A stretch of 21,503 bases of DNA from positions 1-21,503 of the IMG/VR virus record IMGVR_UViG_3300028364_000167; one strand, 5' to 3'. Of this stretch, positions 38 to 12,409 are shown in pieces. The notes below the pieces were generated by a model. It was not told the origin of the DNA. It was given only the letters and a program-made list of their open reading frames with translations, and did no database searches. The stretch is from a virus. Position 1 is the stretch's first letter; each line of letters begins with the position of its first letter. The position numbers and the translations under genes are program-made.

Positions 38-1213
38 ATGACAACCCTTCACCAAGCCTCCCGCCAGTGGTCCACCCGCCCCTCCGATGAGCGGTTCCTG
101 TCCCTCACCGACCTTCAGGCTCATGCCCATTCGGTTCGTGACAACTCGGTCGAGTCGACCGTCACCACGCGCCAGATCGAAGTCCAGCCGCACCCGATGG
201 ACCCGACCCGGGGCATCACCATCGCCGGGGATCACGGCATGGCCGAGCCGACCAACTGGTCCTTCAACCAACTCGCCGCGCTGGCTGGCGCACCCGCCTC
301 CTACCTGCGCAAGCTGCCCGCACCCATCGTGGCCGACGCCATGAACTACGGGATGCGCTTTGGCCGCGACGTGGAGGAGTTCAAAATCCTGCGCACCGAC
401 TCGACGGTGGACGGGGAAATCCTGCCGCCCGAGGTTTCTGACCACGCGATCATGGGTTCTTCGGTTCTCGGACAGATGCCCCCGCGCGCCTACAACGAAC
501 TGCGCGCCGCGACTGGCCCGCGTTACGGTCGGGTCTGGAACTCGGATATCCTCGACGCGCTGGTCGGCAAGTTCGGCGACGGTCGCACCGGCAGCTTCCG
601 TGTCCCGGGCGAGTTCGGGGTGGACGTGCCGATCACCAAGGATAACACGACGATCTATGGCAGCGACCGCGACATGTTCGTCTTCCTCGCCGACGAGAAC
701 AACCGGGTCGAGATGGCGAACCGGCGCGACGGCAAGGGCGGATCGCTCGCCCGGGGGTTCTTCGTCTGGAACTCCGAGGTCGGCGCGCAGTCCATCGGTG
801 CCGCGTTCTTCCTGTTCGATTACGTCTGCATGAACCGGATCGTCTGGGGTGTGCAGGAGTTTTCCGAGATGCGGCTGCGGCACACTGCCAGCGCGCCGGA
901 TCGTTGGATGGAGGAAATCACCCCCGTCCTCATGGAATACTCGAACTCGGCGGCTGCGCCCATCGAAGCCACCATCCTGCTGGCCCAACAGAAGCGGGTG
1001 GACGACGACCTCGACGCCTTCCTCGCGTCCCGGTTCAACAGGAGCGAAGTCGTGGCAATCAAGGCCGCGCATGAGCGGGAAGAGAGCCGCCCCATCGAGT
1101 CCCTCTGGGATGCGACCACGGCGGTCACGGCACACGCCAAGACGATCCCGCACCAAGACGCGCGGGTCAACATGGAGCGGGCGGGCGGCAAGCTGCTGAA
1201 CCTCGTCGCCTGA
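38..1213 (+). CDS. DUF932 family protein (phage/plasmid-like)
   Basis: This 391-residue protein fits the DUF932 family (phage/plasmid-like proteins, TIGR03299 type), which is common in phages and plasmids and has no established biochemical role. Visible family-like features are the early FNQLAALAGAPASYLRKLP segment (about residues 77-95), a central block with EFKILRTDS and PPRAYNELRAATGPRYGRVWNSD-type sequence, and a late segment with GFFVWNSEVG followed by the FDYVCMNRIVWG core (about residues 245-275). The length is normal for the family. The start at 38 is supported by AAAGGAA about eight bases upstream. It is the first gene of the + strand block and is followed by a very stable hairpin at 1223-1242, so it may have its own transcript end. 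The family call is by pattern only; the function is unknown. Confidence 0.85.
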   Translation: MTTLHQASRQWSTRPSDERFLSLTDLQAHAHSVRDNSVESTVTTRQIEVQPHPMDPTRGITIAGDHGMAEPTNWSFNQLAALAGAPASYLRKLPAPIVADAMNYGMRFGRDVEEFKILRTDSTVDGEILPPEVSDHAIMGSSVLGQMPPRAYNELRAATGPRYGRVWNSDILDALVGKFGDGRTGSFRVPGEFGVDVPITKDNTTIYGSDRDMFVFLADENNRVEMANRRDGKGGSLARGFFVWNSEVGAQSIGAAFFLFDYVCMNRIVWGVQEFSEMRLRHTASAPDRWMEEITPVLMEYSNSAAAPIEATILLAQQKRVDDDLDAFLASRFNRSEVVAIKAAHEREESRPIESLWDATTAVTAHAKTIPHQDARVNMERAGGKLLNLVA

Positions 1214-1222
1214 ACCCCTACC

Positions 1223-1242
1223 CCCCGGGCTTCGGCCCGGGG
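1223..1242 (+). terminator. UUCG-capped GC hairpin, terminator-like
   Basis: A perfect 8-bp GC stem (CCCCGGGC / GCCCGGGG) closes on a TTCG tetraloop, ten bases after the stop of the DUF932 gene. UUCG loops are exceptionally stable. There is no T-tract, so it may terminate weakly, act as an RNA 3' end or processing barrier, or depend on Rho. The rest of 1243-1358 is GC-rich, holds further small inverted repeats (for example GGGG-CTTA-CCCC near 1256-1268) and contains no convincing ORF. Confidence 0.55.
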
Positions 1243-1358
1243 CACTTCCGAGGGCGGGGCTTACCCCGGCACAAGCGCAGGCTGGGGGACAAGGCATCCC
1301 CGGGACATGCTGCCCCTCCCTCGCAAGTGCCCTCATCCCTGACAGGAGGAAAAACCCG

Positions 1359-1691
1359 ATGACCAAAAATGCACACACGATGGACGCCGAGTCCCCGCTG
1401 TCGGACCTCCTGAAATGGATGGCCGAAGCGCAGATGGACAACCCTCGCATCGACATATCCAAGGTCGAGGTCATCGCCTTTGACGGGCCTCTCGCTGGCG
1501 ACAAGATGCTACGATGGGAAGTGTCGTCCCTGAAGGAAGCGATGAACGTCATGATCGACGCTCTGGAAGCCTTGCCTCAGTGCAAGGTGACGGTGCAAGT
1601 TCAGGTCTCCATGACCGTCGATTCATCCCCGAAGTTTCGTGACCGGCACCAACCCGGTGGCCATGTTGGCCCCGACTACTCGGCCTTCTGA
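1359..1691 (+). CDS. Hypothetical phage protein, 110 aa
   Basis: I do not recognise this protein. It is preceded by one of the strongest ribosome binding sites in the window, AGGAGG at 1344-1349, ten bases before the ATG, which argues for a real and well-translated gene. The sequence is soluble and mixed alpha/beta in character. It has an acidic N-terminal half (SPLSDLLKWMAEAQMDN), a central region with DGPLAGDKMLRWEVSSLKEA, and a polar C-terminal tail rich in Arg, His, Pro and Gly. No signal peptide, membrane segment or cysteine motif is seen. It lies between two small intergenic regions, so it may be transcribed separately from the coupled genes downstream of thyX. Confidence 0.7.
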   Translation: MTKNAHTMDAESPLSDLLKWMAEAQMDNPRIDISKVEVIAFDGPLAGDKMLRWEVSSLKEAMNVMIDALEALPQCKVTVQVQVSMTVDSSPKFRDRHQPGGHVGPDYSAF

Positions 1692-1757
1692 TACCGACTT
1701 GACCGACCAAGCTGGATAGCATATCCGTGGTTGACAACACCTGACAAGGGATACTGC

Positions 1758-2075
1758 ATGATGACCGACCGTAACACAGAACTCCACGTCGAGATATGTG
1801 GCGATCCAGCCTGCTCGAATTGCATGGCTAAGGCACATATCGCACTGGCCCATTCCCTCTACGCGGGCAACCCGGAGAAGCATCCTGTGCCCGCAGAAGT
1901 CCATGTGACCTTCGACTTGGCAAACGCGCTTGTTGTGCAGGCTCTGCTTGCGGGTTGTCCTCTGAAGTCCTTGCTGGAAGGCGTAACCGCATCCTACGGG
2001 CGAAACGAAGCAGCCCGTAACCTCGCCCGCATCATGAGCGAGGCCCGACCCCAGCCGGGAGCAACCAGACACTGA
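1758..2075 (+). CDS. Hypothetical phage protein, 105 aa
   Basis: The function is not recognised. A TTG at 1731 would give nine extra residues, but the tandem ATGATG at 1758-1763 is preceded by AAGGG at 1746-1750 with good spacing, so I take 1758 as the start. Near the N-terminus is a Cys cluster, ICGDPACSNCMAKAH (C-x4-C-x2-C followed by His), which could bind a metal, although a fourth ligand is not obvious. The C-terminal half (FDLANALVVQALLAGCPLKSLLEG, then NEAARNLARIMSEA) looks helical. The gene is followed by two consecutive hairpins before thyX. Confidence 0.65.
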   Translation: MMTDRNTELHVEICGDPACSNCMAKAHIALAHSLYAGNPEKHPVPAEVHVTFDLANALVVQALLAGCPLKSLLEGVTASYGRNEAARNLARIMSEARPQPGATRH

Positions 2076-2079
2076 GTTT

Positions 2080-2115
2080 CAGCAGCGAGAGTCCCTCCCC
2101 ACCCGGTCGCTGCTG
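2080..2115 (+). other. Intergenic inverted repeat
   Basis: CAGCAGCGA (2080-2088) pairs perfectly with TCGCTGCTG (2107-2115) across an 18-base pyrimidine-rich loop. It sits four bases after the stop of the preceding gene and just before a second, stronger hairpin. It may be part of a composite terminator or a leader structure for thyX. Confidence 0.4.
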
Positions 2116-2120
2116 GATAC

Positions 2121-2153
2121 GCCCCTGACCCCACCCTCCCGGGGGTCAGGGGC
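2121..2153 (+). terminator. 12-bp GC hairpin upstream of thyX
   Basis: GCCCCTGACCCC (2121-2132) pairs perfectly with GGGGTCAGGGGC (2142-2153) around a 9-base loop. This is terminator strength, but the bases that follow are ACCCCCAATCC rather than a T-run. It lies 32 bases before the thyX ATG, so it could end the upstream transcript, protect a processed thyX mRNA 5' end, or modulate thyX expression. Confidence 0.55.
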
Positions 2154-2184
2154 ACCCCCAATCCTTGACAAAGTGAGTTACCCC

Positions 2185-3093
2185 ATGACCGATTCCCACA
2201 TGCTCAAGCGCGCGTCCTCTGCTTTCATGGACCGCCATCTTGGAACAATGCACCCCGTCCTCGACCACGGACACGTCCGCGTGATCGACTACATGGGCGA
2301 CGAAGCCGCCATCGTGCAGGCTGCCCGGGTCAGCTACGGCCTCGGCACGGACACGCCCGCGAAGGACCGCGCCCTGCTGCGCTACCTCATGCGCCACCGC
2401 CACACGACTCCCTACGAGATGGCCGAGGTCAAGGTTCATGTGAAGATGCCGATCTTCGTGGCGCGTCAGTGGATCAGGCACCGGACGGCCAATATCAATG
2501 AGATCTCGGGTCGCTACACCGAACTGCCGCGCGAGTTCTATGTGCCGCGCAAAGCCAAGATCGCCAAGCAGTCGGAGAACAACAAGCAGGGCCGTGCCGA
2601 GTTCCTGACGACCGCCCAAGCCAACGAAGTTCAGGCCGCGTTTCGCCACGGTGCGGACCTCGCGTTCGCGGACTACGAGGGGTTCATCTCGATCTATGAT
2701 CTGGCGAAGGAATTGGCCCGAATCAATCTGCCACTCTCCACCTACACGGAGTTCTACTGGAAGATCGACTTGCACAACCTGCTGCACTTCCTGTCGCTGC
2801 GCGCGGACCCCCATGCGCAGTATGAGATCCGTGCCTACGCCGAAGTGATGCTCGAAATGGTCCACGGGTGGATGCCCCATGTCTACGAGGCTTTCGTGGA
2901 CTATCGCCTCGCAGCCCACACATTCTCGCGTCAGGAGATGGACGTCTTGCGGACGATGCTGCTTGATGCAGGTTGTGACGCGGCGGATGGACTCCCCATG
3001 CCGGAAGGATCGACCACGCGGGAACACAAGGCGTTCGAGGCCGCGCTTCTCGTGCCTGAGAATGACAAATTTGGCGTGGGCGATTTGGAATGA
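2185..3093 (+). CDS. thyX: Flavin-dependent thymidylate synthase
   Basis: ThyX makes dTMP from dUMP using methylene-tetrahydrofolate as carbon donor and FAD/NADPH for reduction, and phages use it to supply thymidylate for replication. The diagnostic ThyX motif RHRTANINEISGRY is intact at about residues 98-111, matching the family pattern RHRxxxxNExSxRY. The C-terminal block NLLHFLSLRADPHAQYEIRAYA, typical of the family, carries the conserved Arg and His of the active site. At 302 residues the length is at the upper end of the normal range. I chose the ATG at 2185; an in-frame GTG at 2173 would add four residues and cannot be excluded, because the Shine-Dalgarno signal is weak. The stop overlaps the next start (ATGA at 3090). 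Confidence 0.96.
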   Translation: MTDSHMLKRASSAFMDRHLGTMHPVLDHGHVRVIDYMGDEAAIVQAARVSYGLGTDTPAKDRALLRYLMRHRHTTPYEMAEVKVHVKMPIFVARQWIRHRTANINEISGRYTELPREFYVPRKAKIAKQSENNKQGRAEFLTTAQANEVQAAFRHGADLAFADYEGFISIYDLAKELARINLPLSTYTEFYWKIDLHNLLHFLSLRADPHAQYEIRAYAEVMLEMVHGWMPHVYEAFVDYRLAAHTFSRQEMDVLRTMLLDAGCDAADGLPMPEGSTTREHKAFEAALLVPENDKFGVGDLE

Positions 3094-3386
3094 CGAAACA
3101 AGACCCACCCCTGCCGCCCGCCCGAGCCGATGGACGCCCGTTGTTCTACGACGTGGCGGCTCACCAGCGATGCCAGTGTGTTCGTTGTCTGGCGGGCGGC
3201 ATTCAGACCTTCTACCCCTACCGTGAGGTCTTCATGAACGACCCGGCGAACCCGCTGGAACAGCAAGAGCCGGGTTCCGTCAACACCGTCTGCAAGAACC
3301 ACGTCCCTGACAACGCGGTCATCTACTGTCCGTGGACAAACGAATGCCGGAACCGGGATGACTCCGTGCGATGGACAGAGGAATAA
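3090..3386 (+). CDS. Small Cys-containing hypothetical protein, 98 aa
   Basis: The ATG overlaps the thyX stop by four bases (ATGA), so translation is probably coupled. The protein is not recognised. It contains QRCQCVRCLAGG in the first half and VCKNH, IYCPW and NECRN later, so six cysteines in total. The CxCxxC cluster plus the later cysteines and histidines suggest a metal-stabilised fold, perhaps a zinc ribbon, but the spacing does not match a named family that I can identify. The C-terminus is acidic and polar. Its place directly after thyX in a coupled operon suggests an early metabolic or host-directed role, which is inference only. Confidence 0.7.
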   Translation: MTKQDPPLPPARADGRPLFYDVAAHQRCQCVRCLAGGIQTFYPYREVFMNDPANPLEQQEPGSVNTVCKNHVPDNAVIYCPWTNECRNRDDSVRWTEE

Positions 3387-3391
3387 GCGTC

Positions 3392-3805
3392 ATGCAATCC
3401 AAAGAGATCCAGATAGGCGGTAATCACTACAAGGGGTTTGTCTACGACCCCTTCGAGATTGCCCATGCCAACGAATACGACGGCGAGTGCTTGTCGATCC
3501 TGAAGTATGTCATGCGGCACGAACTGAAAGGCGGGGCCGACGATCTTCGGAAGGCGATCCACATTGTCGATATTCGGGTGGACCTGATCGAGAAGTATGG
3601 CGCGCGCCAAGGGATAAACGTCCTCCCGCCCAAGGTCTTCATCCCCGCCAACAACACCAAAGGCCCTGAGTTTGCGGTGCTTTGCAGCCTCCATGATTGG
3701 GCGTTGCGCTCTGGAAAATGTGACGATGCTTTCGTGAGCAAGATCATAAAATTCCAGATCGACCACCTGATCCAGATTTATTACCCCGATGAGGAAACCG
3801 AATGA
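3392..3805 (+). CDS. DUF3310 family protein
   Basis: The N-terminal half carries the DUF3310 signature: IQIGGNHYKGF near residue 7, then PFEIAHANEYDGECLSILKY and VMRHELKGGADDLRKAIH. In this family the pattern is a GG-x-HY motif, a region around PIE/PFE, an IKYV-x-RH segment and a GG-x-DL-x-KA helix. DUF3310 proteins are small phage proteins, sometimes labelled nucleotide kinases, without proven activity. Here a C-terminal extension of about 70 residues follows (PPKVFIPANNTKGPEF onward), which is longer than usual. The ATG at 3392 is preferred over 3371 because GAGGA at 3379-3383 is correctly spaced for it, and the 3371 start would overlap the previous gene. The stop overlaps the next start as ATGA. 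Confidence 0.8.
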   Translation: MQSKEIQIGGNHYKGFVYDPFEIAHANEYDGECLSILKYVMRHELKGGADDLRKAIHIVDIRVDLIEKYGARQGINVLPPKVFIPANNTKGPEFAVLCSLHDWALRSGKCDDAFVSKIIKFQIDHLIQIYYPDEETE

Positions 3806-4410
3806 AAACGACAACCATTATCCCCGTCTCGAACGTCGCCCTGCGTTGCGCGGCAGTTCCCCATCTGCTGATCGTCGTGGGCTTTAAGGTCGAGGAAGAT
3901 TCCCTCTTTGCCATGCCGATCACCCTCGGGCTGTCAGACCCTTTTCTGACCTGCGGTGACGCCTTGCTCATGGACGAAGGCGCGGTGATCGACCTCAAAA
4001 CCGGACGCGCTTTCGACACGGCAGAGGAGATGGTCGCGTGGATCGCCGAGACCTCACCCTACAAGATCGGTCAGCCTCTATTCGCCAAAGGCCCTGCCCC
4101 TGCGGCAGTTCCCCAAGGGCGAGGCCCCTATGGGATCGTCTTCTGCGACAAGACTTTCCGGCTGACTTCCAACTGGCACTTCATCGACGCCAACATGCAG
4201 TTTGTCTTTCAGCTTCCGGCTGAGACCAACACGCCGAAAGACAACCGTGTCATCAAGATCAACCGCGACGATCTGAACGCGCTGAAGGCGAATAACGGGC
4301 TGGAAGAACTGGCCTATGCCGTTGTTGTCGGCGACCAAGAACAATCCCCGCAACCTGAGCCTGAGGTCGAAGACGATGACGATGACGATGACCTCGACTC
4401 CATGATCTGA
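3802..4410 (+). CDS. Hypothetical protein with acidic C-terminal tail
   Basis: This 202-residue protein starts inside the stop of the DUF3310 gene (ATGA), with GAGG at 3791-3794 as ribosome binding site. No family is recognised. It appears to have two parts: an N-terminal domain (about 1-90) and a second beta-rich domain (about 100-175) containing YGIVFCDKTFRLTSNWHFID. A linker, QSPQPEPEVE, leads to seven consecutive aspartates (191-197) and a hydrophobic tip, LDSMI. Acidic tails with hydrophobic tips are typical of single-stranded DNA-binding proteins (bacterial SSB, T7 gp2.5, T4 gp32), where they recruit partners. This tail and the DNA-related neighbours make an SSB-like role possible, but no OB-fold signature is evident. 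Confidence 0.75.
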   Translation: MKTTTIIPVSNVALRCAAVPHLLIVVGFKVEEDSLFAMPITLGLSDPFLTCGDALLMDEGAVIDLKTGRAFDTAEEMVAWIAETSPYKIGQPLFAKGPAPAAVPQGRGPYGIVFCDKTFRLTSNWHFIDANMQFVFQLPAETNTPKDNRVIKINRDDLNALKANNGLEELAYAVVVGDQEQSPQPEPEVEDDDDDDDLDSMI

Positions 4411-4420
4411 GGACTAGACC

Positions 4421-4741
4421 ATGCCGAAGAAAACTACCCCGAAAGACGGGCACAACAGCAGCAACAACGTGGCCGGTGCGGAACTGCGCCAGTTCATCGA
4501 ACGCTGGGAACACCTTGAGGGCGAGAAGAAGGATATCGCGGAAGGCCAGAAAGAAGTCATGACCGAAGCCAAGGGCCGAGGCTACGACACGAAGGTCATG
4601 CGCAAGATCATCGCCGAACGGAAGCGGGACGCCGACGACCTCGCCGAGGAAGAAGCCGTGCTGGATATGTATCGGGCTGCCCTCGGGATGGCGGTCTATT
4701 CCCCGGATGAGGATGAACCCGATGGCGACGGGCTTGTCTGA
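4421..4741 (+). CDS. GapR-like (DUF2312) DNA-binding protein
   Basis: The protein matches the GapR/DUF2312 family. It has a GHNS-like start (DGHNSSNNVAG), then AELRQFIERWEHLEGEKKDI, then VMTEAKGRGYDTKVMRKII and a C-terminal LDMYRAALGM, the same order as alphaproteobacterial GapR. Caulobacter GapR is a nucleoid-associated protein that encircles overtwisted DNA and assists topoisomerases ahead of replication and transcription. The coiled-coil region at about 20-50 and the basic segment at about 55-75 are visible. An acidic tail, SPDEDEPDGDGLV, is added at the end. The gene starts ten bases after the preceding stop, with GAGG in the gap, and overlaps the next gene by 20 bases. Phage copies of this family are known; what they do in infection is not established. 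Confidence 0.9.
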   Translation: MPKKTTPKDGHNSSNNVAGAELRQFIERWEHLEGEKKDIAEGQKEVMTEAKGRGYDTKVMRKIIAERKRDADDLAEEEAVLDMYRAALGMAVYSPDEDEPDGDGLV

Positions 4742-4943
4742 CGCGCTGGCCCTGTTGGACCAGATCGACACGGGCAAGGTCACGCGGGAGTTTTACTTCC
4801 TGCGTGGCCCAGCTTCCGAAGAGTGGTCAGTCCACAACCGGGAGAACAAAGTCTGGACCGTTACCAAAGCGCCGCGACTGGCCGACGCCATACTGGCGCA
4901 TTTTGAGACGCCTGAACCTGAGGATTGGAGTGACCTCGTATGA
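4722..4943 (+). CDS. Hypothetical small protein, 73 aa
   Basis: The start at 4722 is chosen because GAGGA at 4709-4713 is eight bases upstream. An earlier in-frame ATG at 4707 would add five residues and has no comparable signal. The gene begins inside the end of the GapR-like gene and its stop overlaps the methyltransferase start (ATGA), so it is part of a coupled chain. The product is acidic (PEPEDWSDLV at the end), with a helical N-terminus (DALALLDQIDTGK) and a likely beta hairpin (REFYFLRGPASEEWSVHNRE). No family is recognised. Confidence 0.7.
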   Translation: MATGLSDALALLDQIDTGKVTREFYFLRGPASEEWSVHNRENKVWTVTKAPRLADAILAHFETPEPEDWSDLV

Positions 4944-5656
4944 CCGACCATTGCACACGCTGCGGGCTGGTGACGCTCGACAACTGCCACAACGACCGCA
5001 TGGCCAATTCCTGCCCTAATGCCCCCGGGGCCGCGTTCTATGAGGGCGCGCTGGCCGGTCTGAAGAAGTGGCACTACAGCACGATCCTTGCCGACCCGCC
5101 GTGGTCCTACAAGACCTACAGCAACCGCGAGCAAGGCACCGTCCCGCACCGCACAGAGACCGCGCCCTATCAGTCCATGACCCTTGATGAACTGCTGGCC
5201 CTGCCAGTCCAAGACCTCGCCACCAAGGACGCCGTGCTGCACCTGTGGACTATCTCATCGCACTTCGATCAGGCGCTCGAACTCGGCGAGGCTTGGGGGT
5301 TCACCTACAAGAGCCTCGGCCTGATCTGGGTGAAGACCCAGAAGGGCGACCCGGAAACGCCGAAGATGGGGATGGGCAAGTGGTTCAGGCAGGAGGGTGA
5401 GGTCTGTCTGCTGTTCACTCGGGGCAAGCCGTCGCGCGTGTCGGCAGGCGTCCGTCAGGTGATCCTCGAACCGGCCCGGGAACACTCTCGCAAGCCTGAC
5501 GAATCCCTCGCCCGCGTGGAGGCCCTGACGGCTGGTCCCTACCTCGAATTGTTCAGCCGTTCGAGCCGCCCCGGTTGGGACGCAATGGGCGACCAGAAAG
5601 GCCGGTTCGATCCTCTCGATCCGAAAGACGAAGCCACGATCTTGGAGATGGTGTAA
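4940..5656 (+). CDS. MT-A70 family adenine N6-methyltransferase
   Basis: The protein is an S-adenosylmethionine-dependent methyltransferase of the MT-A70 (PF05063) family, many phage members of which methylate adenine at N6 in DNA. The catalytic motif DPPW is at residues 52-55, within ILADPPWSYKTY. Family landmarks follow in order: LHLWTISSHFDQAL, a GLIWVKTQKG strand, REHSRKPDE near residue 180 and LFSRSSRPGWDAMGDQ near 203-218. An extra N-terminal stretch of about 40 residues contains CTRCG, NCHND and SCPN, resembling a small zinc site. The length of 238 residues is normal for phage MT-A70 proteins. No restriction endonuclease gene is adjacent, so it is probably an orphan methyltransferase for evading host restriction or marking phage DNA. 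Confidence 0.92.
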   Translation: MTDHCTRCGLVTLDNCHNDRMANSCPNAPGAAFYEGALAGLKKWHYSTILADPPWSYKTYSNREQGTVPHRTETAPYQSMTLDELLALPVQDLATKDAVLHLWTISSHFDQALELGEAWGFTYKSLGLIWVKTQKGDPETPKMGMGKWFRQEGEVCLLFTRGKPSRVSAGVRQVILEPAREHSRKPDESLARVEALTAGPYLELFSRSSRPGWDAMGDQKGRFDPLDPKDEATILEMV

Positions 5657-5988
5657 TGGATAAGAACAGATGGACTTTGGCTGAACTGGCGAAGGATTTC
5701 GGCCTCTGCGACAAAGACTTGAGGAATATGTCCCAACGTATGCCCATACCTACCTCGGGTCGGAGTGGGAAAGCGGACCTTTACGAAAGCCACGAGGCCC
5801 GGGTTCTGGTCATCTGCATGGCTTTGAGACAAGCGGGTCTAAATCGTCGGGCAATCTGGAAATTCGTAACGGATTTCTCTGAAGGCGATAGGCGAGACTT
5901 TATACAGTTCCGCCATTTTGACTACGGGTTGGGAGGGAGCCTATCTATCTACATAGACTTGGACCACATCATTGGCGAGAGGTTGTGA
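5656..5988 (+). CDS. MerR-like helix-turn-helix protein
   Basis: The ATG shares one base with the methyltransferase stop (TAATG), and GGAG lies about ten bases upstream. An upstream in-frame start at 5575 would lie deep inside the methyltransferase gene and is rejected. The N-terminal half resembles a MerR-type winged helix: WTLAELAKDFGLCDKDLRNM is the helix-turn-helix, then RMPIPTSGRSGKADLYESHE is the wing, and ARVLVICMALRQAGLNRRAI is the following helix pair. The C-terminal 40 residues do not form the long dimerisation coil of true MerR proteins. It could be a small phage transcription regulator or an excisionase-like architectural protein. It is the only recognisable sequence-specific regulator in the window. 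Confidence 0.75.
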   Translation: MDKNRWTLAELAKDFGLCDKDLRNMSQRMPIPTSGRSGKADLYESHEARVLVICMALRQAGLNRRAIWKFVTDFSEGDRRDFIQFRHFDYGLGGSLSIYIDLDHIIGERL

Positions 5989-6182
5989 TGCCTCGATCTG
6001 ATTACTGGCGCAGGCCACGCGCAGGCAGCCTCAGGTCGCTCTATGACGAAGGGGTGGCAGCGGCTGCCCGAGGCGATACTTGCCCCCCTATGGCGGGCCA
6101 CGGTGCCGCTACGAGAGAGCATTTTTGGAAACATGGATTTGAGGACGAGTCCGACCGTCAGAGCGTGGAGGCGCTGGTATAG
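5988..6182 (+). CDS. Small protein with possible RMF/CrpP-like fold
   Basis: The gene starts on the last base of the previous stop (TGATG), with GAGAGG just upstream; a GTG at 5985 would add one residue. The 64-residue product contains SLYDEGVAAAARGDTCPPM, then EHFWKHGFEDESD. The pattern Y-x-x-G-x-x-A-x-x-G, then CP, then W-x-x-G-(W/F)-x-D is that of the ribosome modulation factor (RMF)/CrpP-like small proteins often found in phages. RMF itself dimerises ribosomes into inactive 100S particles. The resemblance is short, so the assignment is tentative. No other frame here has comparable ribosome-binding support. Confidence 0.6.
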   Translation: MPRSDYWRRPRAGSLRSLYDEGVAAAARGDTCPPMAGHGAATREHFWKHGFEDESDRQSVEALV

Positions 6183-6404
6183 ATGGAACAGCTTGGCCGA
6201 GGCGCTCGCGTCTGGATCAAGGGCACAGTAGGCCCGCGAGTGAGGATCACGGCGGTAGACTTAGTGATCCGGGAAGCCACGGTCTCATGGCGCTGGAACG
6301 GTCGCCTCAGGGACGCAACATATGGACTCGAATTTCTGACAAGGACGGAACCCAATGCAGACTCTCATCTTCAACGAACGGCCCCTCCTAACGGGAACCT
6401 GTGA
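6183..6404 (+). CDS. Hypothetical small beta-rich protein, 73 aa
   Basis: The ATG directly follows the stop of the RMF-like gene with no spacer, and GGAG lies about 12 bases upstream. The sequence alternates hydrophobic residues (RVWIKGTVGPRVRITAVDLVIREATVSWRWNGRLRDATYGLEFL), which suggests a small SH3-like beta barrel. The layout is reminiscent of small YodC/DUF2158-type proteins with a late W-x-x-x-G-x-x-x-x-A-x-F/Y pattern, but I cannot assign it to that family. Its last 50 bases overlap the start of the next gene, which has a good ribosome binding site. Either the overlap is real or this C-terminus is less constrained. Confidence 0.55.
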   Translation: MEQLGRGARVWIKGTVGPRVRITAVDLVIREATVSWRWNGRLRDATYGLEFLTRTEPNADSHLQRTAPPNGNL

Positions 6405-6666
6405 GTGGTGTGGCCTCGACTGTGACCCGCTCAACTCCTGCTGCTGCAACACCTGTGAGGCTCAGCTTCGCCGACTCGAAGCAGCCCAAGGCAGGATGGT
6501 CATGCGCTCGATCAAACGGTGGAGGCTGAAGCCCAACCATGCCGCGCGCTCAGAGATGCTCGCTGAACTGATCGCCAAGACAGATCGGTTCTTGCGACAG
6601 GATCAGAAACGCCGAGAGAACTTCCACGCCGAACGCCGCGCTGCGGCCCAAACGAAGGAATCCTGA
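6355..6666 (+). CDS. Cys-rich zinc-finger-like hypothetical protein, 103 aa
   Basis: AAGGA at 6341-6345 is correctly spaced for this ATG. The N-terminal third holds a dense cysteine cluster, CEWCGLDCDPLNSCCCNTCE (about residues 16-35), consistent with a treble-clef or zinc-ribbon site. The rest is a long, highly basic helix (RRLEAAQGRMVMRSIKRWRL, later RFLRQDQKRRENFHAERRAA), which suggests nucleic-acid or ribosome binding. No family is identified. It overlaps the previous gene by 50 bases in another frame and ends one base before the MazZ-like gene's ATG region, with the next gene's AAGGAA located in its last codons. Confidence 0.7.
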   Translation: MQTLIFNERPLLTGTCEWCGLDCDPLNSCCCNTCEAQLRRLEAAQGRMVMRSIKRWRLKPNHAARSEMLAELIAKTDRFLRQDQKRRENFHAERRAAAQTKES

Positions 6667-6667
6667 C

Positions 6668-7135
6668 ATGAACGATTTCGTAAGCCACCTGACCCGACAA
6701 GCCGCCTACAGCCGCGCCACGTTCGGCCCGGGGGCGCGCACCGAAGGCGTGTCCGATCACGTCCGAAAGGAACTCAAGGAAATCGCCAGCGTCTACGAAA
6801 TCGGAGGAGATCCAGGGGTCTGCCATGAACAGGCCGCTCTTGAATGGACCGACGTGGTGATCCTCGGACTCGATGGTCTGTGGCGCGCCATCTCGGCGGC
6901 GCATCCCGACTGGACTTTCGACCGGGTGGCTACGGAAGCATGGGTGCGCATCGTCGCCAAGCAGGGCCGAAATGAACTGCGCAACTGGCCCGACTGGCGC
7001 ACCGCAGAACCCGGCAAGGCCATCGAACACGTCCGCACCGACGAAGAGGTCGAGGCCAAAGCCCGCGAGGCTCACGTCGAGCGATCCGCCATCACGGAAA
7101 GTCCGCGCCCGCGCAGCGTGGGAGACCGTGGATGA
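6668..7135 (+). CDS. MazZ-like dATP/dGTP diphosphohydrolase (DUF550)
   Basis: The sequence matches the DUF550/MazZ family (PF04447), MazG-type enzymes that hydrolyse dATP and dGTP to the monophosphates. Landmarks are FGPGARTEGVSDHVRKELKE (19-38), EWTDVVILGLDGLWRA (59-74), NWPDWR and KAIEHVR near residue 120. The metal-binding pattern of the MazG superfamily is intact, with ExxE at 35-38 (ELKE) and ExxD at 59-62 (EWTD), 20 residues apart. An insertion of several residues between them, IASVYEIGGDPGVCHEQAAL, is longer than in the family pattern I recall. In some phages MazZ works with PurZ to replace adenine by 2-aminoadenine; no purZ gene is in this window. AAGGAA at 6655-6660 supports the start. 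Confidence 0.87.
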   Translation: MNDFVSHLTRQAAYSRATFGPGARTEGVSDHVRKELKEIASVYEIGGDPGVCHEQAALEWTDVVILGLDGLWRAISAAHPDWTFDRVATEAWVRIVAKQGRNELRNWPDWRTAEPGKAIEHVRTDEEVEAKAREAHVERSAITESPRPRSVGDRG

Positions 7136-7326
7136 AGACGCCACAGCAGCCCCGCAGCGGCGCTCAGGCTAGGGCAGGGGGGTCAAGTCCCCTTGCCGTG
7201 GCGTCTGATACCCCACACGCCCCGCTACCGCGCCCTTGGACGCCCGTTCGCATCCTCGTGAACTGGTTGGCCCTCATCGTCTTCGGGGTCGCTATCGTGG
7301 CGATCATTGTGGGGGGTGTCCTGTGA
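7132..7326 (+). CDS. Small single-span membrane protein, 64 aa
   Basis: The ATG overlaps the MazZ-like stop by four bases. The first 40 residues are polar and rich in Pro, Ser and Arg, and the last 22 (NWLALIVFGVAIVAIIVGGV) form one strong transmembrane helix ending at the C-terminus. It has the form of a tail-anchored or N-in peptide. The function is unknown; it lies far from the lysis genes in orientation, but only about 200 bases from them in space. The first 75 bases of this gene can fold into a compact multi-branched structure (see the 7136-7206 entry), so the unusual composition of its N-terminal half may reflect an RNA element rather than protein selection. The GTGA overlap with the next gene suggests coupling. 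Confidence 0.65.
   Translation: MKTPQQPRSGAQARAGGSSPLAVASDTPHAPLPRPWTPVRILVNWLALIVFGVAIVAIIVGGVL
7136..7206 (+). other. Compact predicted RNA fold within a CDS start
   Basis: AGACGCCAC (7136-7144) pairs perfectly with GTGGCGTCT (7198-7206). Immediately inside its 3' strand is a 9-bp hairpin, 7173-7181 with 7189-7197 (one G-U pair), closing a 7-base loop GTCAAGT. A third, weaker arm can form in between (7148-7151 with 7167-7170). The result is a 71-base three-way junction in which the closing stem and the 3' hairpin abut, as the acceptor and T arms do in tRNA. Stem lengths and the missing anticodon arm rule out an ordinary tRNA. It begins two bases after the start codon of the membrane-protein gene, so it could modulate that start. 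The pairings were found by eye and could be chance in GC-rich coding DNA. Confidence 0.35.
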
Positions 7327-7547
7327 TCCAGCGCAACACACTAGACGGAGTGGTCCTGCTCGAATGTGATGGGTGTGGGGACGCGCACCGGCAGGACTTC
7401 TACGCCGACCAGTTCACTTTGATGATCGACACGGCCAAGGCCGACGGCTGGTCGATCAGACCGGACGGAGATGGCGGGTGGACCCACCTGTGCAAGTCCT
7501 GCAAGCCGACAGGCGTAGAGGCCCAGCGCAAACTGCTGGGCCTCTGA
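7323..7547 (+). CDS. Zinc-ribbon-like hypothetical protein, 74 aa
   Basis: The GTG at 7323 overlaps the previous stop (GTGA), and a GGGGGG run at 7311-7316 serves as ribosome binding site. Longer starts in this frame would overlap the membrane-protein gene completely. The protein begins MIQRNTLDGVVLLECDGCGD and ends near HLCKSCKPTG, giving two CxxC pairs (about residues 14-17 and 60-63) separated by a helix and GW segment. This is the layout of a small rubredoxin-like zinc ribbon, common among phage accessory proteins of unknown role. It is the last + strand gene, and the terminator hairpin overlaps its final codons. Confidence 0.8.
   Translation: MIQRNTLDGVVLLECDGCGDAHRQDFYADQFTLMIDTAKADGWSIRPDGDGGWTHLCKSCKPTGVEAQRKLLGL
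7517..7545. terminator. Bidirectional terminator between convergent arms
   Basis: AGAGGCCCAGC (7517-7527) pairs perfectly with GCTGGGCCTCT (7535-7545) around a 7-base loop. On the + strand it is followed by GATTTA, and it overlaps the last codons of the zinc-ribbon gene. The - strand gene set ends at 7549, so the same hairpin can end leftward transcripts. Stem strength, position and the one-base gap between opposing stop codons support a shared terminator, though the T-run is short. Confidence 0.75.
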
Positions 7548-7548
7548 T

Positions 7549-8025
7549 TTACTCGACCGTGAAGGTGTTGGAGAACGCGGTCAGTTCCTTTTCGGGCCAG
7601 TCCAGACGCCTGAGTGTCCACCCGATCCGCAGCCTGTAAGTTCCCGGGGAGACTGCGCATGGCCTGCCGACGAACCAGCCCCACTTCACCTGATTACCCA
7701 CGATGAAGTCCGTGGTGTCGTAGTCACTGGTTCCGCTGCCAGAACATTCATTTGACCAGAGACCCTCGCGCCCGAGGCGCTGAACCTCAACGATCCAGAA
7801 CCCTCGGAAGTCTTCTTTGATTGAGCGGTCGTAGACCAACAGGGGGTCGGTCCCATACTCGTGATCGGGGACGAAAACCTCGTTGACTACGAACCATGCT
7901 GACACTGGCACCAAAGCCTTTTGCTTCTGGCCGATGGCCGAGGAAAGCTGGATCACCACGAAGGCCAACGTCAGGGCCACAGTCACTTCAACCAGTCTGC
8001 GAAACCAGAAACTCCAAGTCATCAT
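7549..8025 (-). CDS. Membrane-anchored hypothetical protein, 158 aa
   Basis: The start at 8025 is chosen because its ATG overlaps the preceding stop (TAATG), with GGAG just upstream. A longer open frame reaching 8154 would overlap the neighbour. Residues 10-30 (LVEVTVALTLAFVVIQLSSA) form a single signal-anchor or signal peptide. The rest looks like a secreted beta-rich domain with two cysteines (NECSG and GRPCAVSPG) that could form a disulphide in the periplasm. It is the last gene of the lysis cluster, so it may act at the envelope late in infection. It has no clear spanin features: no lipobox and no Pro-rich or coiled-coil linker. The function remains unknown. Confidence 0.75.
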   Translation of the reverse strand: MMTWSFWFRRLVEVTVALTLAFVVIQLSSAIGQKQKALVPVSAWFVVNEVFVPDHEYGTDPLLVYDRSIKEDFRGFWIVEVQRLGREGLWSNECSGSGTSDYDTTDFIVGNQVKWGWFVGRPCAVSPGTYRLRIGWTLRRLDWPEKELTAFSNTFTVE

Positions 8026-8306
8026 TAGCCTGCTCCGATGTTGGCAATCCAACCCACGATTGCGCCTTGAGTTGCCCAATACATGAACAGGAGAGCGCCG
8101 ACCAACAGGCCGACGTTCTTCAAAGACGACAGAAGTTTGAATACAGACTTCCACTGACTCACGAAGTCCACTGCATAGACCGCTGTGTCCGACTGATCCG
8201 GGTCGAGAGCAATCACATGCCCTGTTTCGGTAAGGCGGCGCAAGTGGTTGAGGGTCTTCTTCGTATCATCGTCCAGCCGAGAACTATCCCCACGACCCCA
8301 CAACAT
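8025..8306 (-). CDS. Small membrane protein of the lysis cluster, 93 aa
   Basis: The protein has a charged soluble N-terminal half (LDDDTKKTLNHLRRLTETGH) and a hydrophobic C-terminal region (about 58-90: LKNVGLLVGALLFMYWATQG followed by AIVGWIANIGAG) that could form one long or two short transmembrane helices. AAAGGG lies about nine bases upstream of the ATG. Its size and position between a putative holin and another membrane protein make a holin, antiholin or other lysis-timing role plausible, but no family is recognised. Its stop overlaps the next start. Confidence 0.7.
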   Translation of the reverse strand: MLWGRGDSSRLDDDTKKTLNHLRRLTETGHVIALDPDQSDTAVYAVDFVSQWKSVFKLLSSLKNVGLLVGALLFMYWATQGAIVGWIANIGAG

Positions 8307-8328
8307 TAGGCGATCCCTTTCTGCTCGA

Positions 8329-8724
8329 TCATTCCGTTCGCTTTGTAAACTCCATCATGACTTTGTTCAACTTCGCCAAGGCGATCCCCTCAAAAACCTT
8401 CTTGGTCGGCGTCAGAAAGTCCATCGCGTCAGGAACGCTTGCCGTGGCATGGTTCAACGCGACGTCGAACGCCGTCGCCGGAAGCAAGTCAGTCGCAAAA
8501 GCTGCGCGCTCGATAGCCATGCGGATGCCGGTCTCGATTGCCGAGTGGAGCGCCCGCATGTGCTTCTCTTCGAGTTCGATCCCGAACTTGGCCTCGGCCC
8601 ACGCCTCGGCCCGCCGGGCTGCCGTCGCGGCAACCGTCTGCGCCACGGAAATGATCGCGCCTATGGCAAGGACGACCAAGGGGAGAAGGGTCGGTTGGAC
8701 CTCAGTCCAGATTTCTTCGAGCAT
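8329..8724 (-). CDS. Putative holin (LLH-like)
   Basis: The gene lies nine bases downstream of the endolysin stop, with AGGAG well placed before its ATG. The protein has one N-terminal transmembrane helix (about residues 12-32, LLPLVVLAIGAIISVAQTVA). It is followed by an amphipathic, charged helical region (RRAEAWAEAKFGIELEEKHM) and a C-terminal segment. This layout resembles one-span holins of the LLH (Phage_holin_6_1) type. Holins form membrane lesions that time lysis and release the endolysin. The assignment rests on position, size and topology; the sequence match is only approximate. The 93-residue gene downstream is an alternative holin. Confidence 0.65.
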   Translation of the reverse strand: MLEEIWTEVQPTLLPLVVLAIGAIISVAQTVAATAARRAEAWAEAKFGIELEEKHMRALHSAIETGIRMAIERAAFATDLLPATAFDVALNHATASVPDAMDFLTPTKKVFEGIALAKLNKVMMEFTKRTE

Positions 8725-8733
8725 GTCGCACTC

Positions 8734-9402
8734 CTATGCTGCGAGTTTGATTCGCTGGCGCAGTTCGTCGCCAACGGTGATGGCGTTGCGCGACCGCGTG
8801 TCGCCGGGCAAGCATGTAATATCCCACTTGCCCCTCTGCCTGATCCCCAGCGTGGGCTGGACCTCGGCATGGGTCAAGACCGTTCGGCGGTCAAGAGCGA
8901 TGCCGTATTGGTTCATCAGCTTTCCCACAAGACGACACATGCTGTCCACCTGAACTTCTCGCATGGGGTAGTTGCCCCAACGGAACGGAACCTCGACCGC
9001 ACCGCGCATACAGGCCATGCCGACGCCGATGGCCCCTGTGTTGGCGTTCAGAACGTGTGGCGTGTAGCGCCCGTCATTGGTCTTGATGTTGTCCTCGGGC
9101 TTCAGCTTGCCGTTGAACACTTCACCGTCACCGTCGATCACGAAATGGTAGTGGTTCACATTCCCCCCGACGGAGTAGGCGCTGGCCGTCCAGTGCATGA
9201 TGATCCGAACAAGGCCCCCGGCGAAGCGGGGCTTCGGTTCGGCAGGCTTGTCCGGGGTGCCCAAGAAGTTGGCAGCCGCCGATTCCCATGCAGTGTTGGA
9301 GAGAGGCCCCCAATCACCGTCAATCGGGCCATTGTATGCGCCCATGTCGCGCAGCCAAATCTGAACTTTGCGGACCACGTTGTCGTCGGAGAGAGAAGCC
9401 AT
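8734..9402 (-). CDS. Endolysin, N-acetylmuramoyl-L-alanine amidase
   Basis: The protein cleaves the bond between N-acetylmuramic acid and the stem peptide in peptidoglycan. Residues 5-50 look like a peptidoglycan-binding domain (VQIWLRDMGAYNGPIDGDWG is the usual repeat pattern). The Amidase_2 domain follows. It has IIMHWTAS with the first zinc-ligand His (H70), NHYHFVIDGDGEVFNG (83-98), and GAIGVGMA. Near the C-terminus is LTHAEVQ with the second His (H178), then GKWD with K192 and D194 as the third ligand region. No signal peptide is seen, so export would rely on a holin. The start has GAGG eight bases upstream. The holin-like gene lies just downstream, which supports a lysis cassette. Confidence 0.93.
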   Translation of the reverse strand: MASLSDDNVVRKVQIWLRDMGAYNGPIDGDWGPLSNTAWESAAANFLGTPDKPAEPKPRFAGGLVRIIMHWTASAYSVGGNVNHYHFVIDGDGEVFNGKLKPEDNIKTNDGRYTPHVLNANTGAIGVGMACMRGAVEVPFRWGNYPMREVQVDSMCRLVGKLMNQYGIALDRRTVLTHAEVQPTLGIRQRGKWDITCLPGDTRSRNAITVGDELRQRIKLAA

Positions 9403-9476
9403 AGGATCAACCTCAGGTAGTCAGGAAGTTATGCCCCCCTTCTACCAGCCGAACCTACAGGTTCCAATTCAATTCT

Positions 9477-9502
9477 GCCCCTCGCTACATATGGGGAGGG
9501 GC
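9477..9502 (-). terminator. Weak hairpin between fibre and endolysin genes
   Basis: GCCCCTC (9477-9483) pairs with GAGGGGC (9496-9502) across 12 bases. It lies 26 bases beyond the end of the tail-fibre gene in the leftward direction and is not followed by a clear T-run. It may attenuate read-through between the fibre and the lysis genes. The rest of the 125-base gap (9403-9527) shows no ORF and no convincing promoter. Confidence 0.3.
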
Positions 9503-9527
9503 CTGCGCCCTAAGGTCACACAGGTCG

Positions 9528-11483
9528 TTAGACGGGGTGATCTGCGAGGGTGAATAGTTGGGCTACGTTCGCAGTCCATGTGCCAGCAGTTATGGTGCCG
9601 GTCACTGGCGTCCACGTTATCCTGTCGTCGCTTTTCTCCACTACGAAAGTCGTCGGAGAGAAACCTGTCGAGTTTGTGGAAAGAGCAATCTCAGTGACAA
9701 CCTTTGTCGCCAGAAAATCATAGGCCAACCATACGTCAGCGATGGGGGTGATGGAATCGGCTGCCCAATGAGCGTTAGTTGAAGAGACACCATCGAAGCC
9801 TCGACCGGGAGCGTTCCGACCATTGACCATATCACCTGCGAAAGGATATCCACCAGTAGCTTGTTCATCAGCACCAATAGTTGTCCTGAATTGAAGTTCG
9901 CTGATCCTCGGGGAACTTCCAATATATGTCAGTATGCGAACTCTCCAACGGCTGTCAGTTATCACAGGAAACACATGGTCTGCCCCTTCTGGAAGAGGCA
10001 AGGTCGGCACGGTATATGCGGCTTCGTATCGCGCGACACCTTTCGTGTATCGGACGGCTTTTATGAAGCCATTGAAGTTGTTGCCGTGTAAACCAGACCA
10101 AGTATTGGCAGCAGCACCGACAGAAAGCATCACATTCCCAACATTGGAATCAAAGATCGTTACCGAAATCGTTGCGGTATGAACCAGAACTCCGTCTTCA
10201 TAAAACCGTAAATCGGTCCCGCTTCTCTCGACGCAAAGATCATATGCTACGTCTTGGGTCAGTGAACGACCTGTGCCTACCCTAGTGAAGGCATTTCCAT
10301 CTACGGAATACAGCATCCCCCACTCAGTTCCGTCTACAATCCCAATGCTGAAAGATCGTCCTCCTTCGTCTGTTCGGTAGCAACCCGCTATGTGTTTGAA
10401 CGACTCAGTTGCGTCCCGACGTTCGACCCCAAACACTTCGAGAGTAAAGTCACCACCCAAGGGAGACCAAGTTTCACCGTTTGTCTGAGCGAGATAGAAA
10501 GAATCACCGTTACTGTTGGCTACACCCTGAAATCCTTTTGCAGTAATGATAGGTTCCGCGTTGCGAGGTGTTATATAAGTTGGACCTGTGAGTTTTCCTT
10601 TTCCCTCTACACCAAAACGAGACTCGAAATCGAGAAGAACTTCTACCTCGCTCCAATGGGCATCACCGGCACCTGTAGGCCAAGGTCCAGTAGCGGGCGT
10701 GAAAGCCGCCGTGTATCGTGCGGTCCCAACTGTGATCCGAAGGTCATCAATGAAAGAGTCGTAAGTAAATCGAGGACTAGACGTCCTATCATCTCTAGCA
10801 CCTATTCTCAAGTCGCTATTCGTAGCAAAGTGTATAGCGACTCCCGTTCCTATAGTGTCGTTGTCATTGAGTGTCGCTCCACCAACAACGCCATCCACGA
10901 AGAGTGTAATAACAGTGTCGGCTCTCGTTACTGCGATATGGTGCCACTCTCCATCGAACGCTTGGGCCATCGTAATGCCGTCGTTGCTGGTGTCAAAAGA
11001 TTGATCATGACTGAAGGAGACCGAACCGGCAGTATCACTTCCATCGGTAGACCACTCGAAAATCCAACGTTTATTGGTCCCATCCCAATATAGATGATGA
11101 GACTTTCTGGAATTAGAGCCGTTATCCCATTGTGCGACAATAACCCCACCGGCGCTTGGTTCTTCTGCGGAATTAAACCAAGCCTCAATCGTGAAGTCTT
11201 CATTACCAAGGTCGGGACTTGACGAAAACTGCAAAGCCCCGTTTTCCTGTGACGAAATTTTGCCAAGTCTGACACTCAACGAATTAGAACCGCGAGCCGG
11301 AGAATCGCTAGAATATACCTCACCTAGAATATCGACAGCACGAGCAGCACTACTCGTGTCAATGGGAGCGCCAAACTCAGCCAAGAACGCCACGTTTGCC
11401 CAATCGGGATCAGAAGTAGGCGGGGGAGGGGTTGCTACGCCGCCCGATGAAGCAACGCTCGAAAGAAGGAGTCCTACTGACAT
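9528..11483 (-). CDS. Tail fibre / receptor-binding protein (LamG, F5/8C)
   Basis: The 651-residue protein looks like an adhesin at the tail tip. Two LamG/concanavalin-like domains are visible. The first, at about 30-265, has DFTIEAWFNS, GEWHHIAVTR and TLFVDG. The second, at about 280-495, has DFTLEVFG and LRFYEDGVLVHTATISV. Each ends in an ARYxAAFT/AYT-type motif. A C-terminal discoidin (F5/8 type C)-like domain spans about 500-650 (RISELQFRTT, then VWLAYDFLATKVVTEIAL, then FVVEKSDDRITWTPV). All three fold types commonly bind sugars. The ATG at 11483 overlaps the preceding stop (TAATG); a 15-residue longer start is less likely. The gene is visibly richer in A and T than its neighbours, which suggests exchange of the receptor-binding module. 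Confidence 0.85.
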   Translation of the reverse strand: MSVGLLLSSVASSGGVATPPPPTSDPDWANVAFLAEFGAPIDTSSAARAVDILGEVYSSDSPARGSNSLSVRLGKISSQENGALQFSSSPDLGNEDFTIEAWFNSAEEPSAGGVIVAQWDNGSNSRKSHHLYWDGTNKRWIFEWSTDGSDTAGSVSFSHDQSFDTSNDGITMAQAFDGEWHHIAVTRADTVITLFVDGVVGGATLNDNDTIGTGVAIHFATNSDLRIGARDDRTSSPRFTYDSFIDDLRITVGTARYTAAFTPATGPWPTGAGDAHWSEVEVLLDFESRFGVEGKGKLTGPTYITPRNAEPIITAKGFQGVANSNGDSFYLAQTNGETWSPLGGDFTLEVFGVERRDATESFKHIAGCYRTDEGGRSFSIGIVDGTEWGMLYSVDGNAFTRVGTGRSLTQDVAYDLCVERSGTDLRFYEDGVLVHTATISVTIFDSNVGNVMLSVGAAANTWSGLHGNNFNGFIKAVRYTKGVARYEAAYTVPTLPLPEGADHVFPVITDSRWRVRILTYIGSSPRISELQFRTTIGADEQATGGYPFAGDMVNGRNAPGRGFDGVSSTNAHWAADSITPIADVWLAYDFLATKVVTEIALSTNSTGFSPTTFVVEKSDDRITWTPVTGTITAGTWTANVAQLFTLADHPV

Positions 11484-12283
11484 TACGCGAGCGCCCCTAC
11501 GATCAGGTATTCGTTTGTTGCGACCCATATAAGGGCGGCAGACCCATACCGACCAGAGATTGTCAGATCATCGCCCAAGGATCGAAGCGTTACCCCAGCG
11601 CCAGCGGCAAAGGTGACTGAGCCTACCCCCTGCTGGTAGAAGAAACAGGTGTCAGTGCCCACGAGGTCGGGGGCAACAGTCACAGTCTGGGCAGCGGCGT
11701 TGTTCATCCGCTTGACCTTGCCTCCATCAAAATCAGCAAGGACTGTCGTGTAGGCCGTGCCGCTCACAACCTCAATCGTGTTTCCCTCGCCGACACTTGC
11801 CGGGTCCACCCATTCTGTGCCGTCAGCGTCGGTGTTCACCGCGAGAACCTGACCAGCCGTGCCCAAAGTCGGTAGGTCCACTCGGGAAACCCATTCTGTG
11901 CCGTCAGCGTCGGTGTTCACCGCGAGAACCTGACCAGCCGTGCCCAAAGTCGGTAGGCCCACTTCGAGAACCCATGCAGTGCCGTCGTAGGTATGCACGT
12001 TGTTGGTGGCTCTGTCGAAGAGCCGCCACCCTTCGTTCGGCTCAAAGTATATCCATGTGGCGACGTCGTAGAGGGCGATGTTTCCTGCCTCGGCGGTAGC
12101 CGTCAAGAGAACGGAAGCCCCGTTGGCAGGGCTGCCCGGGAGAGATGCTGCGATTGAATCCACGGCGATCTGGGTGAGGAACGACAGCTTGCGCAAGTCC
12201 TCGCTCATCGCAACGCCCCAGCCATCCTCGCCTACGTCGTAGAAGGCTCTCAGCCCAAGGCCGGTAAGTTCGCGTGACGGCAT
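11483..12283 (-). CDS. DUF2793 tail protein with internal repeats
   Basis: The N-terminal 100 residues resemble DUF2793 (phage tail or fibre-associated): AMSEDLRKLSFLTQIAVDSI, then GNIALYDVATWIYFEPNEGW, then VHTYDGTAW. Two nearly identical 27-residue repeats follow (each with LPTLGTAGQVLAVNTDADGT followed by EW), encoded by the 81-bp tandem repeat at 11808-11957. A partial related segment (TYDGTAWVLEVGLP) precedes them. The C-terminal region (GNTIEVVSGTAYTTVLADFD onward) looks like a beta-helical or fibre tip. AGGAG lies seven bases before the ATG. It sits between the hub and the fibre and probably connects or caps the tail tip. The function is inferred from family and position. Confidence 0.8.
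   Translation of the reverse strand: MPSRELTGLGLRAFYDVGEDGWGVAMSEDLRKLSFLTQIAVDSIAASLPGSPANGASVLLTATAEAGNIALYDVATWIYFEPNEGWRLFDRATNNVHTYDGTAWVLEVGLPTLGTAGQVLAVNTDADGTEWVSRVDLPTLGTAGQVLAVNTDADGTEWVDPASVGEGNTIEVVSGTAYTTVLADFDGGKVKRMNNAAAQTVTVAPDLVGTDTCFFYQQGVGSVTFAAGAGVTLRSLGDDLTISGRYGSAALIWVATNEYLIVGALA
11808..11957. repeat. 81-bp tandem repeat within the DUF2793 gene
   Basis: The 69 bases at 11808-11876 recur identically at 11889-11957, a period of 81 bp (27 codons), so the reading frame is preserved. The lack of even synonymous differences over 69 bp points to recent duplication or gene conversion. Copy number could vary between related phages. Confidence 0.95.
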
Positions 12284-12295
12284 CGTCGTCTCCTG

Positions 12296-12406
12296 TTACT
12301 GGCCCCAGCCTGCGCCGTAGCCTCTGCCCCAACCCGTGAGGCTTCCCAAAATCGTCGACATTCGGACCATGAAGGCCCCGCGACCGTTAAAGACATTTAC
12401 ACCCAT
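12296..12406 (-). CDS. 36-aa Gly/Trp-rich peptide
   Basis: This short ORF fills the space between two tail genes almost exactly. Its ATG (12404-12406) comes three bases after the stop of the 95-residue gene, and its stop overlaps the region of the next gene's AGGAG. The peptide ends SLTGWGRGYGAGWGQ, closely resembling the C-terminus of the 820-residue hub protein, TGWGNGWGFAWGQVR. The DNA of the two stretches is also alike, which suggests duplication. No strong ribosome binding site precedes the start, so translation may be coupled to the upstream gene. It could be a small tail-tip peptide or a remnant of a duplicated hub end. Confidence 0.5.
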   Translation of the reverse strand: MGVNVFNGRGAFMVRMSTILGSLTGWGRGYGAGWGQ

Positions 12407-12409
12407 CCG

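Follow-up and report, generated by a model that had tools for sequence, protein, structure and literature searches.

The open reading frame at 6668-7135 of the window, which denotes the whole 21,503-base stretch analysed here and comprises an entire linear virus record of IMG/VR, encodes a MazG-fold enzyme of the DUF550/MazZ family with an intact active site. Probably this is a pyrophosphohydrolase of a purine dNTP, likeliest dGTP, that balances nucleotide pools in a module with ribonucleotide reductase (RNR), the thymidylate synthase ThyX and an HD phosphatase-like protein, in a phage whose DNA keeps its adenine. The former DUF550 family is now named for dATP/dGTP activity in phages that carry 2-aminoadenine (Z), so a match invites the guess that the DNA is Z-DNA. 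The first-pass annotation accordingly considered either that purZ lies outside the window or that the enzyme serves another purpose, such as signalling or dNTP balance. Since the record is probably a fragment of a larger genome, relatives were used to look for purZ.

The DUF550 gene and its neighbours

The frame starts with ATG, is preceded by an AAGGAA Shine-Dalgarno-like string and specifies 155 amino acids. It matched PF04447 with an E-value of 2.4e-11 and 44.1 bits, above the curated cut-off of 23, and phrog_4826 with an E-value of 2.4e-37; none of the 14 control genomes gave a PF04447 match. Differences from three homologues at codon positions 1/2/3 numbered 32/30/64, 34/30/69 and 38/32/70, the third-position excess being as expected of a protein under selection. 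The gene is thus real, and the earlier assignment to the MazZ/DUF550 family is right. The preceding stop at 6666 lies one base before the ATG and the following ATG at 7132 overlaps the mazZ stop. From 38 to 7547, the genes accepted as real lie tightly packed on the + strand, lysis and tail genes being on the - strand. That thyX and an MT-A70 methyltransferase gene accompany mazZ on the same strand was confirmed (Table 1); the operon in which all three had been placed is suggested by strand and packing.

Table 1. Recognised genes of the window and residues of its DUF550 protein, in window coordinates.
Feature	Position	Strand	Evidence
DUF932 protein	38..1213	+	PF06067
thyX, FAD-dependent thymidylate synthase	2173..3093	+	PF02511, 4.3e-54
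DUF3310-like protein	3371..3805	+	PF11753, 2.3e-4, 21.6 bits, below cut-off 24; conserved in relatives
GapR-like DNA-binding protein	4421..4741	+	PF10073, 3.9e-31
MT-A70 adenine N6-methyltransferase	4940..5656	+	PF05063, 4.8e-30
DUF550/PF04447 MazG-fold (d)NTP pyrophosphohydrolase, window (non-PurZ) type	6668..7135	+	PF04447, phrog_4826, profile match 7ODY, AlphaFold
S15, where most PurZ-linked DUF550 have W15	6710..6712	+	alignment, larger locus set
H31, where the PurZ-linked DUF550 examined have K31	6758..6760	+	alignment, larger locus set
Metal-binding residues E35, E38, E59, D62 (S-2L E35, E38, E50, D53)	6770..6853	+	alignment, invariant in 28/28 rows
D69 (S-2L D60)	6872..6874	+	alignment
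K98, N102, R105, W107, H121 (S-2L K76, N80, R83, W85, H95)	6959..7030	+	alignment

The whole window as query had no near-identical match among phages. One further record, G003, matches window 7469-21503 without a difference over 14,035 bases and adds 15.4 kb of this phage on the right. A sibling (G038, locus L080; 77% in SNF2) carries primase, DUF2815, polA, VRR nuclease and SNF2 genes. The complete isolate Synechococcus virus S-ESS1 and the 55-kb sibling record G039 share the core genes of the window and add a class II RNR, the HD phosphatase-like protein and polA. G039 has the order HD protein, class II RNR, mazZ, thyX, DUF3310, GapR and MT-A70, beyond which follow lysis, tail, portal, TerL, SNF2, polA, DUF2815, Cas4-like and primase genes; DUF932 had no match in it. 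S-ESS1 shows this order too, except that DUF932 separates RNR from mazZ and that thyX is followed by an annotated DHFR. A DHFR suspected from reading in fragment L076 (G001) was without Pfam support. Shared gene order and homology in structural as well as replication genes fit the window to the S-ESS1-like Casjensviridae, the family name being that of the S-ESS1 and RcCWillis records.

DUF550 was found in the window and in six fragments of the group (L058, L071, L072, L074, L075 and L076); a 7.3-kb fragment with DUF932 (G034), which may be too short, had no match. The place of mazZ in the conserved gene row varies: it follows MT-A70 in the window and L074, precedes thyX in L058, L072, L075 and L076, and lies upstream of DUF932 in L071. 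RNR was found upstream of DUF932 at a distance of 0.2 kb in L058, 1.5 kb in L072 and about 5 kb in L071, with mazZ and other frames between in the last, and the HD protein is encoded upstream of RNR in all three. As the window starts at DUF932, genes for RNR and the HD protein would be expected in this phage within a few kb to the left of it.

Two observations concern other genes. The class II RNR of L058 (2225-5425) contains an insert of ~260 residues, intein-like by eye and with Cys as its first residue, no intein profile being reported. In the window, a fibre-like frame on the - strand (11483-12283) contains a tandem near-copy at 11808-11986, 94% identical over 99 bases.

Active site and fold

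The window protein has both metal-ligand motifs of the MazG type, ExxE (E35/E38) and ExxD (E59/D62), and in the alignment it keeps the equivalents of S-2L MazZ residues I56, L57, D60, K76, N80, R83, W85 and H95. The guanine-pocket positions I56 and D60 are among these; according to PMC8342488, from which the residue roles are taken, D60 contacts the 2-amino group of guanine, and the enzyme of Acinetobacter phage SH-Ab 15497 takes dATP too. The alignment suggests an enzyme that looks active, with a guanine-type pocket. Its S15 and H31 stand in place of W15 and K31 of S-2L, hence specificity may differ. One relative, L075 (G005), is without the K-N-R-W part of the active site: at about 409-444 of L075 its place in mazZ is taken by a stretch of 36 bases that agrees in frame with the window phage's tape-measure gene at 94% identity, as might result from recombination or from a chimeric assembly.

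A phmmer search of the PDB with the window protein alone had no match, and a 49-row profile found one distinct solved sequence, S-2L MazZ (7ODY), with an E-value of 0.0056. Profile-profile comparison of the window type with five PurZ-linked DUF550 proteins gave a probability of 96%. The AlphaFold model (pLDDT 91) had no significant Foldseek match in the PDB (best E-value 0.75). Re-ranking by VIA-align placed HisE, MazG, 7ODY, YpjD and dCTPase on top, (nearly) tied at Z 7.6-8.3, scores which alone are weak evidence for helical proteins and with which the sequence profile, by its match to 7ODY, agrees. Structure alignment and sequence profile together fit the window protein to the all-alpha NTP-PPase (MazG/HisE) fold, with 24% identity to the S-2L MazZ structure over the aligned part.

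MazG-fold enzymes of other substrate, HisE and dCTPase, thus score as high as MazZ, and the main rival within this fold is an enzyme that, like others of the fold, hydrolyses dUTP or dCTP and so yields dUMP for ThyX. The structures of DR2231 with dUMP and of mouse dCTPase are among the fold matches (Z 6.8-7.4), and upstream of thyX the first recognised gene is mazZ in L058, L072, L075, L076, G039 and S-ESS1. We nevertheless rate a supply of dUMP as unlikely, because the residue equivalent to D60, which reads the 2-amino group of guanine, does not vary, the S-2L MazZ that comes closest among solved sequences is (d)GTP-specific, and mazZ lies about 3.4 kb or more downstream of thyX in the window and L074.

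PurZ searches and two types of DUF550

With PF00709, PurZ was found in 11 of the 11 PurZ phages and both PurZ0 phages that served as controls. It had no match in the window, where the first-pass annotation had likewise seen no purZ, nor in the rightward extension G003, the sibling G038, G039 (55,028 bases) or the complete genomes of S-ESS1 and RcCWillis, which argues against base replacement. PurZ was also absent from nine phages that are recorded as complete and have DUF550 of the window type (D14H, MD8, Dmitri, phiLM21, Bask21, R5C, R26L, Whack and RHph_X2_30) and from yong2 and BENtherdunthat, which have it as well. Among the IMG/VR records with the closest DUF550 homologues (best 80 of 394, none with a stated completeness, 49 of them of at least 35 kb) none contained PurZ.

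The relation was also examined from the side of PurZ. A tblastn search of phages with S-2L MazZ returned S-2L itself only and was useless for counting, so PurZ was taken as bait and up to 3 kb on each side of each PurZ locus were read for DUF550. Since PF04447 missed the MazG-like genes of two out of six PurZ phages (BUCT555 and phiVC8), PurZ-linked DUF550 was found with a purpose-built HMM; the HMM of the window type was made without the row of L075, part of whose active site is replaced. The best 80 of 382 PurZ loci, probably not PurZ0 in view of their 41-84% identity to S-2L PurZ, had DUF550 of the PurZ type within 3 kb in 76 cases, none detected in four and the window type in none. Among the tblastn matches listed (76 of 100 for window-like DUF550 and 102 of 200 for PurZ), comparison by eye gave no common record.

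DatZ, by PF12917 over its cut-off, was present in all 11 PurZ phages and in none of 23 non-PurZ records, so that the check on datZ suggested earlier, here made on relatives, also speaks against base replacement; matches below threshold occurred in five of the 23 (siblings G035, G036 and G006; R26L; yong2). The polA product of the sibling (L080) gave by blastp a best E-value of 0.036 against four DpoZ of the SH-Ab 15497 type and 0.070 against the polymerase of PurZ0 phage Bennie. In the 11 PurZ phages viewed, purZ, the MazG-like gene and the dATPase gene adjoin or have one gene between them, whereas window mazZ is flanked by small unassigned frames, with no purZ-mazZ-datZ cluster. None of 42 PurZ records had MT-A70, against seven of eight others (the window, G039, S-ESS1 and four fragments; not RcCWillis). 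Z-DNA is compatible with an adenine methyltransferase, whose presence nonetheless speaks for adenine in the genome.

A tree of 28 rows separated eight PurZ-linked DUF550 proteins from the window protein and 19 others with a branch support of 100/100, which agrees with the monophyly of the DUF550 of Z phages stated in PMC12884076. At position 15 the eight PurZ-linked rows all have W, and the 20 others S (16), G (3) or a gap (one). At position 31 the former all have K and the latter all H, 12 of these 20 having been obtained by tblastn without the H31 pattern, yet chosen by likeness to the window. In the larger locus set, the 76 PurZ-linked proteins (from the best 80 of 382 PurZ loci) have W (73), F (2) or Q (1) at position 15 and K (76) at position 31. 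The best 80 of 394 window-type loci have S (79) or G (1) and, at position 31, H in all 80, a count that is partly built in as one of the two search patterns includes H31. Copies of the records of three of the 80 DUF550 loci (L099, L100 and L102) helped build the HMM. The window protein thus falls outside the PurZ-linked clade and has neither W15 nor K31. PHROGs splits the types less clearly: the window protein matches phrog_4826 best and the PurZ-linked protein of PMBT28 phrog_801, and S-2L MazZ scores slightly higher with phrog_9147 and phrog_4826 than with phrog_801. Of interest is that positions 15 and 31 (W/K versus S/H) distinguish PurZ-linked DUF550 from the rest, a simple test by which annotators may assign the type even where the genome is incomplete.

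Some PurZ-less phages with window-type DUF550 have other notable neighbours. In the Dinoroseobacter phages R5C and R26L (L086 and L087) the gene lies within a 7-deazaguanine cluster (QueC, FolE, QueF and a queuosine tRNA-ribosyltransferase-like protein), and their polA resembles the DpoZ of Z phages with 25-29% identity and E-values down to 3e-61. In phages MD8 (L082) and RHph_X2_30 (L089) DUF550 is near a nucleoside deoxyribosyltransferase-like gene, which recalls the dNMP glycosidase of PurZ0 phages.

Nucleotide pools and known systems

Since window-type DUF550 occurs without PurZ in all records searched, pool control is a likelier context for it than base replacement, and the lack of PurZ in the relatives examined makes ordinary DNA most likely for this phage. 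The alternative of dNTP balance raised by the first-pass annotation fits the gene neighbourhood of RNR, ThyX and HD protein, from which, together with the homology, we infer substrate, direction of flux and physiological role. Class II RNR would raise dNTPs and ThyX make dTMP, and the DUF550 enzyme would cut a purine dNTP, most likely dGTP (perhaps dATP or GTP), to the monophosphate and PPi; the HD protein, of the YfbR/DatZ superfamily, may then strip the remaining phosphate. Purine dNTPs would thereby be held in proportion during replication while RNR and ThyX enlarge the pool. Adenine would be retained in the DNA, some of it probably N6-methylated by MT-A70. The presumed preference for dGTP is read from one homologous structure at 24% identity.

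The HD protein of the relatives is distantly related to DatZ, with a profile probability of 96%. It keeps R19, H34, H66, D67, E70, G74, P79 and K81 in an alignment that slips at DatZ K116 and D119. The proteins of S-ESS1 (52485-53030 of its record) and L071 match phrog_318 (deoxyribonucleoside 5'-monophosphate phosphatases), not phrog_7076 of DatZ (dATP triphosphohydrolase), and against PF12917 the HD proteins stay below the cut-off, with none reported for S-ESS1. The joint presence of MazZ-like and DatZ-superfamily enzymes in phages where PurZ was not found is noteworthy. It seems quite unlikely that such a purZ-free 'half Z-cluster' of MazZ-like protein, DatZ-superfamily HD protein, class II RNR and ThyX actively remodels the purine pool, either as an ancestral state of the Z pathway or in favour of a purine other than A, G or Z through an unrecognised enzyme; if so, the MazZ/HD pair would drain one purine to the nucleoside.

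House-cleaning of damaged nucleotides and removal of the alarmone (p)ppGpp are among the proposals for MazG proteins given in PMC6850273. We consider them very unlikely here: in the same text the MazG of cyanophage S-PM2, though a different MazG protein, neither binds nor hydrolyses (p)ppGpp and prefers dGTP and dCTP, and the families scanned brought out no gene for signalling in the window, nor did any evidence turn up for the signalling role raised by the first-pass annotation. That preference for dGTP could also suggest that the enzyme adapts a GC-rich host to the needs of an AT-rich phage by lowering dGTP and dCTP, the role put forward for S-PM2 MazG; the window itself has a G+C content of 59.5%, so this argument does not transfer, and we set it aside as extremely unlikely. 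Full replacement of adenine by 2-aminoadenine, with purZ, datZ and dpoZ beyond the fragment, would accord with the Pfam family shared with MazZ, the conserved guanine pocket, the fragmentary record and the DatZ-like HD protein of relatives, yet its probability is close to negligible given the PurZ results for relatives, closest DUF550 records and controls, the lack of window-type DUF550 at PurZ loci, the substitutions of W15 and K31, the surroundings of mazZ and the distribution of MT-A70.

The preferred assignment, a purine dNTP pyrophosphohydrolase in pool balance, can be set against four known systems. Closest in gene content is S-ESS1, whose DUF550 gene, unannotated in its record (KY249644 44948-45238, minus strand; L095 2501-2791; DUF550 at 44951-45238), encodes a protein with 44% identity to that of the window over 107 residues. 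The neighbourhood shared with the window and its relatives comprises RNR, DUF932, thyX, DUF3310, GapR, MT-A70, tail, TerL, SNF2 and polA genes, PurZ not being found, but mazZ stands between DUF932 and thyX instead of after MT-A70. The S-ESS1 frame has no start codon and misses about 20 N-terminal residues; as the record also splits polA, SNF2 and others, sequencing errors are likely. Rhodobacter phage RcCWillis (Casjensviridae) resembles the window in DUF550 (45% identity), thyX, GapR and related tail genes, and no PurZ was found in its complete genome. It differs in having no MT-A70 match and a separate PF18909 dATP/dGTP diphosphohydrolase.

The (d)GTP pyrophosphohydrolase MazZ of S-2L (7ODY) shares fold and catalytic residues with the window protein, as the profile-profile comparison reflects, but belongs to the other clade, with W15 and K31 and a purZ-mazZ-datZ cluster. 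The DUF5664-DUF550 protein of Acinetobacter phage SH-Ab 15497, a dATP/dGTP pyrophosphohydrolase, is fused to PF18909, unlike the window protein, and its gene adjoins purZ and a phosphohydrolase gene. Its PMBT28 homologue is the protein for which phrog_801 was best above, phrog_4826 being best for that of the window, and its DUF550 domain is of the same Pfam family as the window enzyme.
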